A DNA stretch of 64,000 nucleotides from Arenicellales bacterium (GCA_028284225.1 JANQSD010000002.1:62001-126000); one strand, 5' to 3'. Counted from the stretch's first letter, positions 30,858 through 62,292 are shown. The notes: a model not told the origin generated them from the sequence alone. Made by a program: numbers and translations.

Positions 30858-30890
30858 TTGAGAATGATTCTCATAAATGATATCATTCTT
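30858..30890 (+). promoter_or_regulatory. fur promoter with Fur box
   Basis: TTGAGA, 17 bases, TATCAT forms a promoter; its spacer holds GAGAATGATTCTCATAAAT, a good match to the 19-bp Fur box, followed by the palindrome AATGATATCATT. This implies autoregulation of fur, and possibly of the divergent hydrolase gene. Confidence 0.75.
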
Positions 30891-49407: not shown

Positions 49408-49504
49408 AATCTATCTCAACACAACTAAGTAAAGTTCAAACGTGCCAAAAAAGAGCGAAAAAGCAAAATTCACACATCGTAAATAAGCATTTTGAGGTAG
49501 ATTT
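49408..49504. mobile_element. MITE-like element, family A, shortened copy
   Basis: AATCTATCTCAA at the left and TTTTGAGGTAGATT at the right are inverted repeats near TA dinucleotides; the centre has GAGCGAAAAAGC as in the full copies. Relative to 6755-6895 it lacks the segment between two ATTTTGAG repeats. It fills the hmuT-hmuU gap and touches the hmuT stop codon. Confidence 0.65.
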
Positions 49505-50419
49505 TAATTATTGTTTGGTTGCAAGTCTGTCGTTGCACTTAGCTGGTTATGTGTACTGTTCTCATCATTCAAGCCCAGGTTATTTAGTATTTCGATCATC
49601 TCAGCAATGATACCCGGACCATAACCGCCACTAAGACTAGCGCCTGTAACAGTACTGAGTTTGTGATTGACAATGGCGTCTGTCGACTCAATACCTGGCA
49701 ACATTTCGATCAATATTTGCTCGTCAATCGGTTCCGCCCGTGTATCCAATACTAGGATAACTTCAGGATTAATCGCTATGATTGACTCACTGGATAACAC
49801 CCGATAACCCTCAAATGCTGCAGCATTAGTGAAACCCAATGAATTGATCAAGGCATTTGCATTAGTTCCGCTTCCGGAAATTCTTGGCGAACCTTTCCCA
49901 TTAAGATAACAAAAATAATGCACGTTGCTTTTTTATAGATTTCTTAAGTTCTTCAAAGGTCTGTTTTTGTTGATTAATTTGTTCAATCAACATATCAGTA
50001 TCTGGATTTTTCGACAGTAATCTACTGAGTTGTTTTATATTCCGCTTTAATTGCTCAACTGAATATGCCGGTTCAATTATAACCAGTTCAACATCACTGT
50101 TTTTTAATTGATTCACTACTGAATCCGGCCCCATATCGGTAGTTCCGATAATCATGTCAGGTGCCAGAGATAACAAACCTTCGGCGCTTAAATTACGTTG
50201 GTAACCAACATTGGGAAGAGACGAATATTTGGGTGAGGCTTGGACACTGGTTGAATCCACCGCGATTAGATTATCCTCTAAGCCCAAGCCTGAAATCATC
50301 TCGGTAACACTGGCTCCAATAGAAATGATCTTTTGAGTTTTATTGGCTAATGCAGTCGGAGAAATTATTAACTTAACTAAAAATAATACTGCTATAAGGA
50401 TTGAATGAGATTTAACCAT
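49504..50419 (-). pseudogene. hmuT: haem-binding periplasmic protein gene with frameshift
   Basis: Two overlapping frames together encode one HmuT-like haem carrier. The first (50419-49901, 172 residues) has a signal peptide and KIISIGASVTEMISGLGLED, the usual start of the mature domain, and breaks off at KKQRALFLLS-stop. The second (ending at 49504) resumes with NGKGSPRISGSGTNANALIN and GFTNAAAFEGYRVLSSESII. Removing one base near 49904 would give a continuous protein of about 304 residues, the normal length. Either a real one-base insertion, an assembly error, or much less likely a recoding site. All other haem genes look intact, so an error or very recent mutation is plausible. Confidence 0.8.
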
Positions 50420-55090: not shown

Positions 55091-55155
55091 AGCTGCCATA
55101 GTAAAAGAGTGATACAGGATAAACCTGTATCACTTTCCTCCACTTTACGGCAGCT
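55091..55155. repeat. large two-part hairpin between the propeller and microprotein genes
   Basis: The inner stem GTGATACAGG / CCTGTATCAC (loop ATAAA) is perfect over 10 bp; an outer stem joins AGCTGCC with GGCAGCT and GTAAA(A)G with CTTTAC. On the minus strand it follows the propeller gene's stop by 9 bp, and TCTTTT follows the inner stem, so it may be a leaky terminator. Confidence 0.6.
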
Positions 55156-55163
55156 TCGACCGT

Positions 55164-57173
55164 TTATAACCGGTTCACAATAAAATTAACGATGTAGTAA
55201 GCATTAAAGCTTGGCTGTCGATCAAGCAGCCAGCGTTTAAGTAAACGTTCATAGTAAAAACCTCGTGCATAACTATAAGGCATTACAGCCCTGATATTGG
55301 CATAGGCATTTAATTGTGCAATTCGAGCCAATTCAACATCATTGTCAATCAAGGCTCGACGCATCTGTTTAAGTGAATCATAAGCTACTTTTTTGGCAAT
55401 TTTCTTTTCGAGTTTGATCAAATTGTAGTACTGTCGTTTAGGAAAACGCTGTTTCTTTCCACTTTCGTTACATTGATCTATTGGATCTTTGTAAGATGGT
55501 GCTAATTTAGACAAACCTTTTTTCAACAAACGGCCTCCCCTGTGCTGTTGGTTTGGCTTAATTTCGCCTGCTTGCTGATAGAGACCGTTTTGCAAATGGC
55601 TGCCATAGTAAATCACAGCAGCAGTATCCCATTGATGAGCCGCTCCTGTTTCACAATTGAAATCATTATGATAAAGAGCTGCGATCTTTGCTTTTTTAAG
55701 TTTCTTGGCAAACAATTTATGCTGTAATGCCAACAGTCCATTCACTACTGCATCAGCTCTGGCCGAGTCATCTAATTGAGAAAAATAAGCATTTCCGGCT
55801 ATTGCTGCATTGATGTAATCCGCCAAATTAACGCCTTTTTGATGATGGGGATTAAAAGCAGCAATTAACTCCGCTAACGCAGGGATTGATGACTCTGTCT
55901 GACCATCGTTAAATACCGCGGCAATCAAATTCCAATCAACAGGATTAGTTGATAATAGCCCTATGATTGCGGTGATGTCACTTAGCCGTGCACTGTAATC
56001 AAATACATCTGAGACAGCATAGTAACGATCCAAAGAAAAGTATTTTGGTAAAAACTCAACCGTTCTAGCAAAATCGGGAAACTGACCATTAATCGTTTCG
56101 CCCGTCCAGCGAATCGTCTCGCCCGGATCCATAAAACTATCATTTTGATTAAGATCTACTAGACGCCATACATTATCGTTTTCACTGGCAAACGCGGAAG
56201 TTAAGTAAAGCTCACCCGTATATGTAATACCCAATCCCCACGTTAACCCTAGTGGATATTCTTCCGGAATTACACTTTCATCCCAAACTTTAGTCGCCTC
56301 ATCCTGTGAGTCGATCACACCGTTGCCATTAAGATCATCTAGACGATAAATCGTCTGCAACTCTGCCCTAGTAGAACACTCCTGAATAAATAAGCTGGTA
56401 CCATCAGTGACAATACCAATACACACCGGTACACCATATGGATTTTCGTTATCAATAAAGACTGTTAATTCATCAGCACTGATGACACCGTCTTCATTTA
56501 CATCCTCTGCTCTAAGTACTGCGTCGGGCTGTGAACCGATAGTATCAACGATGTAAGCCACATCATCAATCATGGTTATTTCGAATGCTGAAGAAACATT
56601 TTCATCATATCCAAGCACGTCGCTTAAGGTCACTGATAAATCCAACCAAACGCCGGCTTCGCCTTCATCGTTAGCATCGCCATCACCATTTAAATCGATG
56701 GTTCGGTAAACAGCATCTTGTGGCCTTGATCGAACACCAGGGTTAACGATATAAATACTTCCATCGTCGGCTTGGTGTAACCCATTGGGAGTCGGTAATG
56801 TCAAACCTGCGACATTTTCCTCAGAAAACCATATATTAGCCTCGCCTTCATCATTAGCATCGCCGTCATTATTTTTATCATCAAGTCGATAAACTGTGTC
56901 AGAACCTCCATCGGCCACATAAACATAACCGTCAATTCCGCGGTGTACTGAAAACACACTTCGCGTAGGAGTCACCAGACTGGATGAATTGCTTTCATCA
57001 AAATAAATCTTGGTTTCACCTTCATCGGCAGCATCACCGTCATTGTTTAAATCTTGAGTAACAAACAAAGTATCTAAAGTCAAATCACTGACTACCAGAC
57101 TACCTTTTTGTGAGGCGGATACTGAAAAAGCAAGTAAGAATTGAACGATAAAAACTGAGAAAAAGAGACGCAT
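55164..57173 (-). CDS. secreted protein with six ~60-residue calcium-loop repeats (propeller-like)
   Basis: A 669-residue exported protein (signal peptide LFFSVFIVQFLLAFSVSAS). Residues 35-360 consist of six repeats of about 60 residues, each with a loop of the type DLNNDGDAADEGE, at about residues 41, 99, 160, 224, 280 and 340. These resemble EF-hand/dockerin calcium loops, and the intervening VFSVHRGIDGYVYVADGG-type strands look like blades of a six-bladed propeller. Residues 360-669 are a separate helical domain, rich in Ala and Lys, that I do not recognise. A Fur box in its promoter marks it as iron-repressed. A role in iron binding or surface contact is only guessed. Confidence 0.75.
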   Translation of the reverse strand: MRLFFSVFIVQFLLAFSVSASQKGSLVVSDLTLDTLFVTQDLNNDGDAADEGETKIYFDESNSSSLVTPTRSVFSVHRGIDGYVYVADGGSDTVYRLDDKNNDGDANDEGEANIWFSEENVAGLTLPTPNGLHQADDGSIYIVNPGVRSRPQDAVYRTIDLNGDGDANDEGEAGVWLDLSVTLSDVLGYDENVSSAFEITMIDDVAYIVDTIGSQPDAVLRAEDVNEDGVISADELTVFIDNENPYGVPVCIGIVTDGTSLFIQECSTRAELQTIYRLDDLNGNGVIDSQDEATKVWDESVIPEEYPLGLTWGLGITYTGELYLTSAFASENDNVWRLVDLNQNDSFMDPGETIRWTGETINGQFPDFARTVEFLPKYFSLDRYYAVSDVFDYSARLSDITAIIGLLSTNPVDWNLIAAVFNDGQTESSIPALAELIAAFNPHHQKGVNLADYINAAIAGNAYFSQLDDSARADAVVNGLLALQHKLFAKKLKKAKIAALYHNDFNCETGAAHQWDTAAVIYYGSHLQNGLYQQAGEIKPNQQHRGGRLLKKGLSKLAPSYKDPIDQCNESGKKQRFPKRQYYNLIKLEKKIAKKVAYDSLKQMRRALIDNDVELARIAQLNAYANIRAVMPYSYARGFYYERLLKRWLLDRQPSFNAYYIVNFIVNRL

Positions 57174-57187
57174 AAAAAATCCTTTGG

Positions 57188-57239
57188 TTGCAAATCTAAA
57201 TGAGAATGATTATTATTTACATAATTAAATCGTTGTCAA
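57188..57239. promoter_or_regulatory. divergent Fur-controlled promoters
   Basis: Plus strand: TTGCAA (57188-57193), 17 bases, TATTAT (57211-57216). Minus strand: TTGACA (57239-57234), 17 bases, ATAATA over the same bases. Fur box GAGAATGATTATTATTTAC at 57202-57220 overlies both, so one site should repress the propeller gene and the FagA-like gene together. Confidence 0.75.
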
Positions 57240-57285
57240 TTTATTTGTACCAATTAGTGCAAATAAAGTTAGCCAGGTAATTTTT

Positions 57286-57642
57286 ATGACCACTCAACTC
57301 GAATGTGCAGTTATCTCAAAATGGTACGAAAATGCCAGACGCGTCAGGTATTTTCATATTCCCAATGATACTCAAGCAATTAATGAATATTTAGACTCCG
57401 GCCAACAAGTTATACGCAAGTATTCTGTAGATTCAGCCCACGATGTTTATTTAACTGAATACAATGTTTTGTTAGAAACCATGTGCGACACCTTAATTCC
57501 CAGCAACTGGCGGCAGCTTTGTAGCGATAACATCACCAAAATTCTGATCAGACTTAGAGCTCTGGCATACACCAAAGAAGAAATTCTATTAACGCAGACT
57601 TTGTCAAAAGAACATAAAACTCTAGAAAAGTATTTTGTTTGA
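57286..57642 (+). CDS. FagA-like small protein, paralogue 1
   Basis: A 118-residue, mostly helical cytoplasmic protein. The segment LLETMCDTLIPSNWRQLCSD followed by NITKILIRLRAL matches the segment LLETVADELIPAHWRCLCLD, NIYKPLCSLQKI of the protein at 60671-61066, so the two are paralogues. Both resemble FagA, the small Fur-associated protein encoded with fumC in pseudomonads, by this block and by context. It lies behind the strong divergent Fur promoter and is followed 59 bp later by a secreted-protein gene. Biochemical function is unknown. Confidence 0.6.
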   Translation: MTTQLECAVISKWYENARRVRYFHIPNDTQAINEYLDSGQQVIRKYSVDSAHDVYLTEYNVLLETMCDTLIPSNWRQLCSDNITKILIRLRALAYTKEEILLTQTLSKEHKTLEKYFV

Positions 57643-57701
57643 TGAAGTTGCCTTAACACTTTGTCAGTTGTTTGACTAATAGTTTTTAAAAGGAGTAGAA
57701 A

Positions 57702-58472
57702 ATGAAATTTATTAAGTCCGCGAAAGCAGTAATCAGCTCTTTTGCTTTTTTATCGTTGATAGGTGGCTATGTCATCACAGCACATGCCCACCATCGTTCT
57801 TGCTCGGTTGAAGCATACAATTTTTTCTGGAGCGGTCAAATTGCCGGTTTTATGGTGAACGGCAGGTTTAGTTTTAACGGTAACGCTATTCCTGAAAACG
57901 GCATAATTCGTGAAGGCGATCTATTATCCTTAGACGTTTCTTTTTATGATCCCAAAGGCCGCCTGCTACGAACCTATAAGGATAACCAGAGAAAACCAGT
58001 TGACAGCAGCGGTAACCCTTACTTGAATTTTGCTTTCGACACGATAACACGAACACTTCTACAAGATGGGACCTGGAAAGTAGATGACGACGGACGTTAT
58101 CGAAACGGCTTTATGATGGGCGAAGGTAACCCAGACCTTAGGAATGTGCCCAATTCACAAACAGGATTAGCCTTCTGGTCCAGGCCGGCTGACGATAAAG
58201 TACCGCATCTGCATGTTGATGACTGGGCTGATCAACTGATTGACCCTGACACTGGACTACCCTACCCAACAGCTTTCAGCAGTCACGAAGACGTTGCCTT
58301 TATCTACGAAACAACACAACAACTCTTGGATAAACCAGGCAAGGTTAAAATCGATCCGGTAGCCACCGATGTTGGTGCCTTCGGAGAAAAGGTCCGAGTA
58401 ATGAAAGCTGACCGCAGTTACAAAGATCGCCGGGATTATATAAGGTGTCTTCGAGCAAATACGAGATATTAA
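57702..58472 (+). CDS. secreted protein of unknown function
   Basis: A 256-residue exported protein. The signal peptide (hydrophobic SFAFLSLIGGYVITAHAH) ends before HHRSCSVEAYNFFWSGQIAG. The mature part has mixed strands (GDLLSLDVSFYDPKGRLLRT), histidines in VPHLHVDDWADQL, and few cysteines. No known domain is recognised. A strong ribosome-binding site AAAGGAG precedes ATG. It is probably the second gene of the Fur-controlled FagA-like transcript, so it may be exported under iron shortage. A MITE-like element follows. Confidence 0.65.
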   Translation: MKFIKSAKAVISSFAFLSLIGGYVITAHAHHRSCSVEAYNFFWSGQIAGFMVNGRFSFNGNAIPENGIIREGDLLSLDVSFYDPKGRLLRTYKDNQRKPVDSSGNPYLNFAFDTITRTLLQDGTWKVDDDGRYRNGFMMGEGNPDLRNVPNSQTGLAFWSRPADDKVPHLHVDDWADQLIDPDTGLPYPTAFSSHEDVAFIYETTQQLLDKPGKVKIDPVATDVGAFGEKVRVMKADRSYKDRRDYIRCLRANTRY

Positions 58473-58500
58473 GCATCAAGAGCAAAAATTCTTTATATTA

Positions 58501-58640
58501 GAACCTAGCTCAAATTAGTCGAGCGACGTTCAGACAAGGGCAAATCTGAGCGAAAAAACACAGCTTACTTAACGTAAGTGAGCATTTTGAGCGATCTTTT
58601 AACGATGTATCAACGAGCGCAAGCTTTTCGAGATAGGTTC
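58501..58640. mobile_element. MITE-like element, family A, full copy
   Basis: A 140-bp relative of 6755-6895 with TA at both ends (58499-58500, 58641-58642), imperfect terminal repeats GAACCTAGCTCAAA and TTTTCGAGATAGGTTC, and the shared centre GAGCGAAAAA, AGCATTTTGAGCGA, CTTTTAACGA. It lies between convergent genes and has no ORF. Confidence 0.75.
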
Positions 58641-60670: not shown

Positions 60671-61066
60671 TTAATAGTAAAGGCTGTGTTCAACATATCG
60701 TGTCGTAATGGACAATTCATTGAACAGGCGCTTAAGACGCAGCTCAGATTCCTCATCGTTGGAAATCTTCTGCAACGAACACAAGGGTTTATAGATATTA
60801 TCCAAGCACAAACAGCGCCAATGTGCAGGAATCAGCTCATCTGCCACAGTTTCCAAGAGCAATTTAAACTGTTCTTCGTGGTGTTGCCGGAGTTGAGATA
60901 TGGAGCTTTGATACGGATTAGGCGAATCCAACGAAAACCATAATCTAATCAACGCCGGGTTGTCCGGCTCAGTGCCAAAACGAATTTTATCGCGCAGCAC
61001 CTCTAAACTTAGATTATCACTTATGCCAGTTATATTGGCCACTTGTTGTGTAATTGATTGTTTCAT
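60671..61066 (-). CDS. FagA-like small protein, paralogue 2 (upstream of fumC)
   Basis: A 131-residue helical protein. Its LLETVADELIPAHWRCLCLD, NIYKPLCSL block is the part shared with 57286-57642, and the HWRCLCLDNIY portion recalls FagA of pseudomonads, which also precedes fumC. Lies 32 bp after the DUF6607-like gene and 21 bp before fumC, thus in one transcript. Two cysteines in the block are conserved here, but only one in the paralogue. Function unknown. No strong ribosome-binding site is seen. Confidence 0.65.
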   Translation of the reverse strand: MKQSITQQVANITGISDNLSLEVLRDKIRFGTEPDNPALIRLWFSLDSPNPYQSSISQLRQHHEEQFKLLLETVADELIPAHWRCLCLDNIYKPLCSLQKISNDEESELRLKRLFNELSITTRYVEHSLYY

Positions 61067-61098: not shown

Positions 61099-62220
61099 TT
61101 AATACTCGATAAAGCGTTTCAGTGTTTGTTGAATGAACTCGCGGCCTTGCGCTGGATCATAGTCCGCTTCCGAAAGTTTATCGGCATACTCGAACATATA
61201 TTTATAAAGTTCACGATCATCGACTTTACGCTTTAACCGAAAACCCGATTTCGTTTGTTGGATTTGTTGCCATGCCTGGCGAACATCAAGCCAAAAGTCG
61301 GAGGTTTGCTGCCAAAACAAATCACCGGCGGAAAAGTCATGATCGACTATTCGTTCATATCTTGCCAGGCCAGCTTCTCGCGCTAAATAAGGTATTATTG
61401 GATCCGGCAGGCCAGCATCAGTGAGCACTGTTTTTAAATTATCCTCTTCTTGGACCCACCCCGTCGGTGTAATGGTATGGCGGTTAGTGCCAACCAGAAC
61501 ATGATAGTCATTGCGGACACTGTATTCACGCCTGGGCAATGGCCGCCAGGTCTGCTCACTTTGCCAACTTGAGTAACCCCCTTCATGCCGCCAGCTGCCG
61601 ATAGCCTGGTAACGCGGGGAATCATCAACTTGATATACAGCTTGTGACCAACTGCCTTGCACTTGTTCGGGAGTAAACGTTTTACGCTGCCAGCCTTGAT
61701 GGCCCGCATAAACAGTGATTGAAGTATTTTCATAGCGCCAATCCTGACGCCAGTGCTTAATCACTACCGGTTCAGAAATTACGCCTTCGCCCATATCAAA
61801 AAACATCACCATGATATGCTGTAAGCTGATAAATCTTTCTTCATCCGCCAAGACATAAATATATTCCGTACCCCAACTTTGGTAGGGCCTGTCAGGAACA
61901 TAGTCAGCCGTAAAACCAACTGTTTCGATGAAATCAAAACTGACTCGATAAGGGCCAGCCATGGCTAGAATCGCCCGTCGATCTCGCTCACGCTTGCTGA
62001 TTTGGGGCTCTTGAATTGACTGCCATGCACTGCCGGGTGTTTTGTCCAGTTTAATTTCACTACCCTTGGTCGTTCCACCACGTGGCTTTATGCCTCCACC
62101 ATCAGAATAAGGCCAGGAAAAAGTATATTGCTGCTCTGCCGTTGTCTGTTTGTGGGTTTCATCATAGGCAGCTAGATTAACCGTAAACATTAACAACACT
62201 GCATAAACTAATCGTTTCAT
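61099..62220 (-). CDS. exported DUF6607-like protein
   Basis: A roughly 373-residue protein. I choose ATG 62220 because AGGAA lies 9 bases before it and it begins a signal peptide (KRLVYAVLLMFTVNLAAYDE). The mature part is rich in Trp, Tyr and Arg: YTFSWPYSDGGGIKPRGGTT, VSFDFIETVGFT, VVIKHWRQDWRYE, TVYAGHQGWQRK, YQAIGSWRHEGGYSSWQSEQ. These features suggest DUF6607, a family of periplasmic proteins of unknown role seen with iron-related genes; I am moderately sure of that name. It heads the transcript to FagA-like and fumC. Confidence 0.65.
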   Translation of the reverse strand: MKRLVYAVLLMFTVNLAAYDETHKQTTAEQQYTFSWPYSDGGGIKPRGGTTKGSEIKLDKTPGSAWQSIQEPQISKRERDRRAILAMAGPYRVSFDFIETVGFTADYVPDRPYQSWGTEYIYVLADEERFISLQHIMVMFFDMGEGVISEPVVIKHWRQDWRYENTSITVYAGHQGWQRKTFTPEQVQGSWSQAVYQVDDSPRYQAIGSWRHEGGYSSWQSEQTWRPLPRREYSVRNDYHVLVGTNRHTITPTGWVQEEDNLKTVLTDAGLPDPIIPYLAREAGLARYERIVDHDFSAGDLFWQQTSDFWLDVRQAWQQIQQTKSGFRLKRKVDDRELYKYMFEYADKLSEADYDPAQGREFIQQTLKRFIEY

Positions 62221-62292
62221 TAACGCATTTCCTGGTTTACTTTTGCTTTGCAATAATAGAAATACCCATCCATTTACTTAGCTCAACTTAAC

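Follow-up and report, generated by a model that had tools for sequence, protein, structure and literature searches.

A predicted Fur-controlled locus in an Arenicellales bacterium encodes a charge-inverted FEA1-family domain joined to a probable calcium-loop propeller

The locus described here occupies positions 55164-58472 of a 64-kb stretch of DNA (the window) from an Arenicellales bacterium (GCA_028284225.1, JANQSD010000002.1:62001-126000). Its main open reading frame (ORF), ORF669 (55164..57173, minus strand), encodes a predicted exported protein of 669 residues in two domains, a probable propeller and a C-terminal domain assigned by homology to the FEA1 family. ORF118 and ORF256 run divergently from it on the plus strand, and all three genes proposed in an earlier note on this DNA are present as open reading frames. 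On the best reading, the locus would be a lineage-specific, Fur-repressed accessory to iron acquisition, built around a fusion of propeller and FEA1 domain that has an inverted charge and falls within a known family.

The C-terminal half of ORF669 (residues 380-669; 55167..56036, minus strand) is matched by NCBIfam model NF038033, "FEA1-related lipoprotein", over residues 384-535 of the full-length protein (41 bits, E-value 1e-10). Compared alone, this part earns 43.9 bits (E-value 1e-11), and pieces of the domain align to the profile in colinear order. ORF669 also matches bacterial FEA1 proteins directly, with a phmmer E-value of 1e-12 to family member L046. A family profile built without ORF669 scores it at 42.1 bits over residues 384-644, against 6.5 bits for the best of 2000 shuffles. 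The invariant columns G-A-x-H-x-W-D, located through the alignment and through substitution probing of the profile, are retained as GAAHQWD at residues 510-516 (55626..55646, minus strand), where the family has GAxHNWDEAWAFYHG. Within the core motif GAxHxWDEAWA, GA-x-H-x-W-D is kept, while E becomes T517 and W becomes A519. By the profile and phmmer comparisons, residues 384-644 are a divergent FEA1-family domain. The earlier note had described an unknown helical domain, a protein resembling no known iron carrier, and an undescribed system. The first description gives way to the family assignment, the second is wrong for ORF669, and the third fails for this protein, the main one of the locus, since its C-terminal half falls in the FEA1/phytotransferrin family. 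PF07692, the Pfam domain of that family, is shared by Chlamydomonas FEA1 and FEA2 and by ISIP2A, a phytotransferrin of diatoms (PMC7966952, PMC7676907), and FEA1/phytotransferrin proteins are important for iron uptake in many marine algae (PMC7676907).

Several observations weigh against the reading of ORF669 as an FEA1-derived accessory of iron acquisition. Its NF038033 score lies far below the equivalog cut-off (41 versus 250 bits). PF07692 gives no match to it even at an E-value of 10; the link runs only through L046 and its relatives, which pass, so ORF669 is a remote member, nearer the bacterial branch. Near-invariant family residues are lost: HE in the helix before the signature is replaced by K491/L492, WDE reads WDT517, and the E of HQAEG becomes N622, the alignment of this last part being approximate. 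The isoelectric point (pI) of the domain is 9.46, versus 4.0-4.5 in all nineteen other aligned FEA1 domains. The AlphaFold model of the domain has low confidence (predicted local distance difference test, pLDDT, 54); the model of L046 is confident (pLDDT 92) and all-helical. For neither protein was a solved structure of similar fold found by PDB sequence search or by Foldseek against PDB and viral structures, so ligands cannot be mapped onto the domain. This agrees with the FEA1 crystallography paper, which reports no homologue in PDB (PMC8098128). An imelysin fold for FEA1 was considered and is unsupported: the Foldseek search with the FEA1 model matched no solved structure, whether imelysin, ferritin-like or transferrin. 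Finally, the searched genomes yielded no orthologue of ORF669 that would show conservation. As to export, the N-terminus MRLFFSVFIVQFLLAFSVSASQKG lacks, by eye, the lipobox Cys that the lipoprotein signal of NF038033 members would require. Given the lost acidic residues and the basic pI, iron binding by ORF669 cannot be assumed, and the usual acidic-residue metal site is unlikely to be intact.

The N-terminal half begins with a Sec-type signal peptide, read by eye (residues 1-21; 57111..57173, minus strand), and continues as a strongly acidic region of pI 4.05 (residues 22-379; 56037..57110, minus strand). The calcium-loop repeats reported earlier, six of them about every 60 residues, are confirmed: loops resembling D-x-N-x-D/N-G occur at residues 41, 99, 160, 224, 280 and 340, with a spacing of 56-64 residues and a degenerate sixth copy. 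A repeat alignment gives six units of about 60 residues, each with strand-like segments and a calcium-type loop. Profiles for EF-hand, beta-propeller repeat, ScyE and DUF7133 match this half weakly, all below curated cut-offs. It is probably best read as a six-bladed calcium-loop propeller. Such a region could be the active part of the protein, the FEA1-like domain being degenerate and without metal binding, and ORF669 would then be an exported adhesin or binding scaffold for surfaces or partner proteins, induced in low iron. The acidity of the loop-bearing N-terminus, the loss of conserved acidic residues and the contrast of pI 9.46 with the values of relatives speak for this alternative; the kept G-A-x-H-x-W-D signature, the Fur box and the surrounding iron genes speak against it, and we regard it as unlikely, if far from negligible.

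The NF038033 profile was read by single substitutions, which gave the consensus H-x-W-D-E-A-W-A, and a DNA pattern made from the motif was run over 84,980 species genomes. It returned 37 loci, about 20 of which encode proteins with GAxHNWDEAWAFYHG or a near-identical sequence; their hosts are Acidimicrobiia, Dehalococcoidia, marine Nitrospiraceae, Poseidoniales and Elusimicrobia. Most of these bacterial and archaeal proteins pass the NF038033 cut-off, and PF07692 is passed by all tested members from Acidimicrobiia, Dehalococcoidia, Elusimicrobia and Poseidoniales. Among the papers searched, none dealt with bacterial FEA1 members. In Nitrospiraceae the FEA1 gene adjoins a gene for a P19-type iron transport protein (PF10634, E-value 3e-17). 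In Acidimicrobiia it lies beside genes of an ATP-binding cassette (ABC) transporter; the binding protein and the ATPase of this transporter score as phosphonate and ferric types, below every cut-off. The gammaproteobacterium G244 (L065:5348-12355) has, in order, genes for a bacterioferritin-like protein, a TonB receptor, a double FEA1-like protein of 756 residues and a multicopper oxidase. Gene neighbourhoods of this kind support an iron role for the family. Boxes of DtxR/IdeR type upstream of the actinobacterial FEA1 genes are weak (13/19, P about 0.03) and were left out of the argument.

Some further features of these relatives may be recorded. The marine Nitrospiraceae pairs of FEA1-domain and P19 genes lie at L041:5914-7999 and L052:5519-7886, and in the former the region preceding the FEA1 domain looks P19-like by eye. 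The G244 cluster recalls the algal pairing of FEA1 with FOX1, and a 12/14 Fur-like box stands upstream of its oxidase gene. In four loci (L055, L043, L046 and L065) the latter half of the FEA1 domain is weakly matched by PF16148 (DUF4856), which exceeds its cut-off in the G244 protein; DUF4856 and Fea1 may therefore be related families.

The divergent start codons of ORF669 and ORF118 are separated by 112 bp, and this gap contains a tandem pair of overlapping Fur boxes of the 7-1-7 type (57201..57221). The first, 57201-57215, reads TGAGAATGATTATTA and agrees with the consensus at 12/14 positions; the second, offset by 6 bp at 57207-57221, agrees at 11/14. The site is joint best in the window, where 0.85 sites of such quality are expected by chance, and its P value from shuffles of intergenic DNA is 0.0055. 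Over the whole genome, a stricter Fur pattern finds 20 matches versus 7 for the reversed control, with the tandem box among the 20. A promoter-like site for ORF669, TTGACA-16-AATAAT (57212..57239, minus strand), recognised by pattern only, fits 11/12 consensus positions and has its -10 element inside the Fur box. The overlap of a 7-1-7 box with a promoter predicts membership in the Fur regulon. On the other arm the corresponding site, TTGCAA-17-TATTAT (57188..57216, plus strand), fits 9/12, which is chance level. The earlier proposal of one Fur site over two divergent promoters therefore stands for the tandem box and for the ORF669 promoter, while its fagA-side promoter finds no such backing. 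At the level of sequence, both a Fur operator and an involvement in iron are well supported for this locus. Downstream of ORF669 lies a strong intrinsic terminator-like hairpin (55108..55134, minus strand) with an 11-bp stem and a T-rich tail. The other top-scoring Fur-like site of the window, at 30859-30873, is a perfectly palindromic box, TGAGAATGATTCTCA.

On the plus strand, ORF118 (57286..57642) encodes a protein of 118 residues without a signal peptide. It had been called FagA-like, and the name holds: it is a paralogue of ORF131 (60671-61066), a FagA-like ORF that neighbours fumC elsewhere in the window, with 28% identity over 98 residues (E-value 1e-11). The fumC-linked copy is ORF131, and ORF118 precedes ORF256 in place of fumC or sodA. 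A DUF6607 gene (61099-62253) lies directly before the FagA-like/fumC pair. In Pseudomonas, FagA is part of the iron-limitation-induced fagA-fumC-orfX-sodA operon (PMC3377617). Relatives of ORF118 within the order are found directly before fumC (L021), after TonB receptors (L020, L022) and after a PepSY-like membrane protein (L023, L025), these neighbours being named by eye. ORF256 (57702..58472, plus strand; 256 residues) begins 59 bp after ORF118, has AAGGAG upstream, and carries, again by eye, a Sec-type signal peptide. It has no Pfam match, and no relative was found in 145 related genomes, 299 genomes of the phylum, phages, plasmids or viral contigs. Two matches at E-values near 0.05 are not credible, one being antisense to an unrelated gene and the other containing an internal stop. 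ORF256 thus stays an orphan. Between ORF256 and the azurin gene, an interspersed repeat of about 150 bp (58496-58640) recurs across this genome, with at least 40 matches; it resembles a miniature inverted-repeat transposable element or a repetitive extragenic palindromic element and is perhaps a terminator.

Only one genome showed the arrangement of propeller and FEA1 domain. Searches of the 145 relatives and of plasmids did not turn up ORF669, nor did a scan of the genome collection with 8-mers from its C-terminal part. Searched with the FEA1 profile, 109 genomes of the order gave ORF669 as the sole match, and wider sets, 369 genomes from the class and 398 from the phylum, gave only ORF669 and the very different G244 protein. 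Other matches to NF038033 among the 299 phylum genomes are short, fall mostly in the first ~115 profile positions (a Ser/Ala-rich linker in bacterial members) and were taken as compositional. A genome of the same genus, 75% complete, matches the region only at fumC and in one short stretch. Recent horizontal transfer is unsupported by composition: the G+C content (GC) of the three genes, overall and at third codon positions (GC3), lies within the spread of their neighbours, except for a somewhat low GC in ORF118.

These distributions bear on whether the divergent genes form a unit. Co-occurrence of the three genes, which the earlier note proposed as a check, can be neither shown nor excluded, as no orthologues of ORF669 or ORF256 were found, and their partnership is unproven; the view that the three genes are one conserved functional system is unsupported. 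They may instead be Fur-regulated genes that are independent of each other and have come to use a common operator in a single lineage, a serious contender that falls a little short of an even chance. Co-occurrence was not seen, the partners of FagA-like genes in relatives are TonB receptors, PepSY-like proteins or fumC rather than FEA1 or ORF256 genes, and the match of the same-genus genome at fumC alone points the same way. The single tandem Fur box between the arms and the shortness of the ORF118-ORF256 gap argue for a closer connection.

Judged from its predicted products, the region around the locus is an iron island. The part of the window from 45 kb onwards, together with the next 6.5 kb outside it, contains a ferric/phosphonate-type ABC permease gene, haem ABC genes, a HutX/ChuS-like gene, a haem TonB receptor gene, ferritin, azurin, the fumC-FagA pair, an FbpA-like binding protein, two imelysin-like proteins and a di-haem oxidoreductase, the last group named by eye. 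The haem uptake genes expected near the locus, namely the receptor, the HutX/ChuS-like gene and the haem ABC genes, are indeed there. With such neighbours, and with a basic domain rich in Tyr (20 of its 290 residues) that could pair with haem propionates, ORF669 might be a haem-binding, haemophore-like accessory that delivers haem to the adjacent receptor and HmuTUV. This is distinctly improbable: ORF669 resembles no haemophore family, it is set apart from the haem genes by ferritin, DUF454 and a terminator, and to our knowledge no FEA1 protein binds haem. The gene for the haem ABC substrate-binding protein is itself broken into two ORFs that overlap and differ in frame (49504-49923 and 49901-50419), through a frameshift, a pseudogene or an assembly error. 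Just past the window (L068; G000:C4:125001-132000), the FbpA-like gene, the two imelysin-like genes (GYHAVEFLLWG in the first), the di-haem oxidoreductase gene and one for a further exported protein resemble an IrpA-type operon.

The proposed mechanism, then, is that of an iron-acquisition accessory. In low iron, Fur would leave the tandem box, and ORF669 would be made and exported by the Sec pathway. Its calcium-loop propeller would provide a stable scaffold for docking or for binding a ligand, and its FEA1-derived domain would capture or position an iron source close to the neighbouring uptake systems, either the haem TonB receptor and HmuTUV-like ABC transporter or the ferric-type ABC transporter. 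Because most conserved acidic residues are lost and the domain is basic, the likeliest ligand would be either a partner protein or iron in an anionic complex (ferric carbonate, ferric citrate, or haem by way of its propionates), not bare Fe2+ or Fe3+. ORF118, predicted to be cytosolic, and exported ORF256 would be induced from the same operator, the former as a general low-iron accessory and the latter as an orphan co-regulated protein. We judge it evenly balanced whether ORF669 has such an accessory role, exported and repressed by Fur. That its FEA1-like domain really binds some form of iron is possible and somewhat doubtful. These two estimates and that for merely co-regulated arms overlap. 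The boldest version is improbable: in a bacterial protein derived from phytotransferrin, the charge-inverted FEA1 domain fused to the calcium propeller would act with co-induced ORF256 to bind iron as an anionic complex (ferric carbonate, ferric citrate or haem), and the two proteins would form a new pair for siderophore-independent iron capture at the surface or in the periplasm of Gammaproteobacteria. The analysis nonetheless removes one unknown from an iron-starvation locus, links that locus to a known iron-uptake family, and places bacterial and archaeal FEA1 proteins beside recognised iron genes. One lineage appears to have rebuilt the FEA1 domain with opposite charge, an added propeller and an adjoining Fur operator, and the locus offers a bacterial setting for testing the function of the family.

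Among known systems, six-bladed calcium-loop beta-propellers of EF-hand, ScyE or DUF7133 type share with ORF669 the six ~60-residue repeats and D-x-N-x-D-G-type loops, but its profile matches all fall under curated cut-offs and no catalytic signature is recognised. Imelysin/IrpA-type periplasmic proteins are exported members of iron regulons, and the window is closely followed by the two imelysin-like genes, yet the FEA1 model has no Foldseek match to any solved structure, imelysins included. Pseudomonas FagA is comparable through the fumC-linked paralogue of ORF118, whereas ORF118 itself is not linked to fumC and is divergent from ORF669. The FEA1-related lipoproteins of NF038033 from Acidimicrobiia, Dehalococcoidia and Poseidoniales have a homologous domain with the GAxHxWD core, a similar length and an all-helical character; they are acidic (pI 4.0-4.5), keep WDEAWAFYHG intact and lack a propeller, whereas ORF669 has a basic domain, has lost acidic residues, carries the propeller and lacks a lipobox. 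Algal FEA1/FEA2 and diatom ISIP2A (PF07692) belong to the same superfamily by way of bacterial intermediates, and ORF669, like them, is predicted to be exported and, from its Fur box, induced by iron starvation. It differs from them in having no direct PF07692 match and no recognised membrane anchor, and in being a bacterial protein with a Fur operator and a fused propeller.

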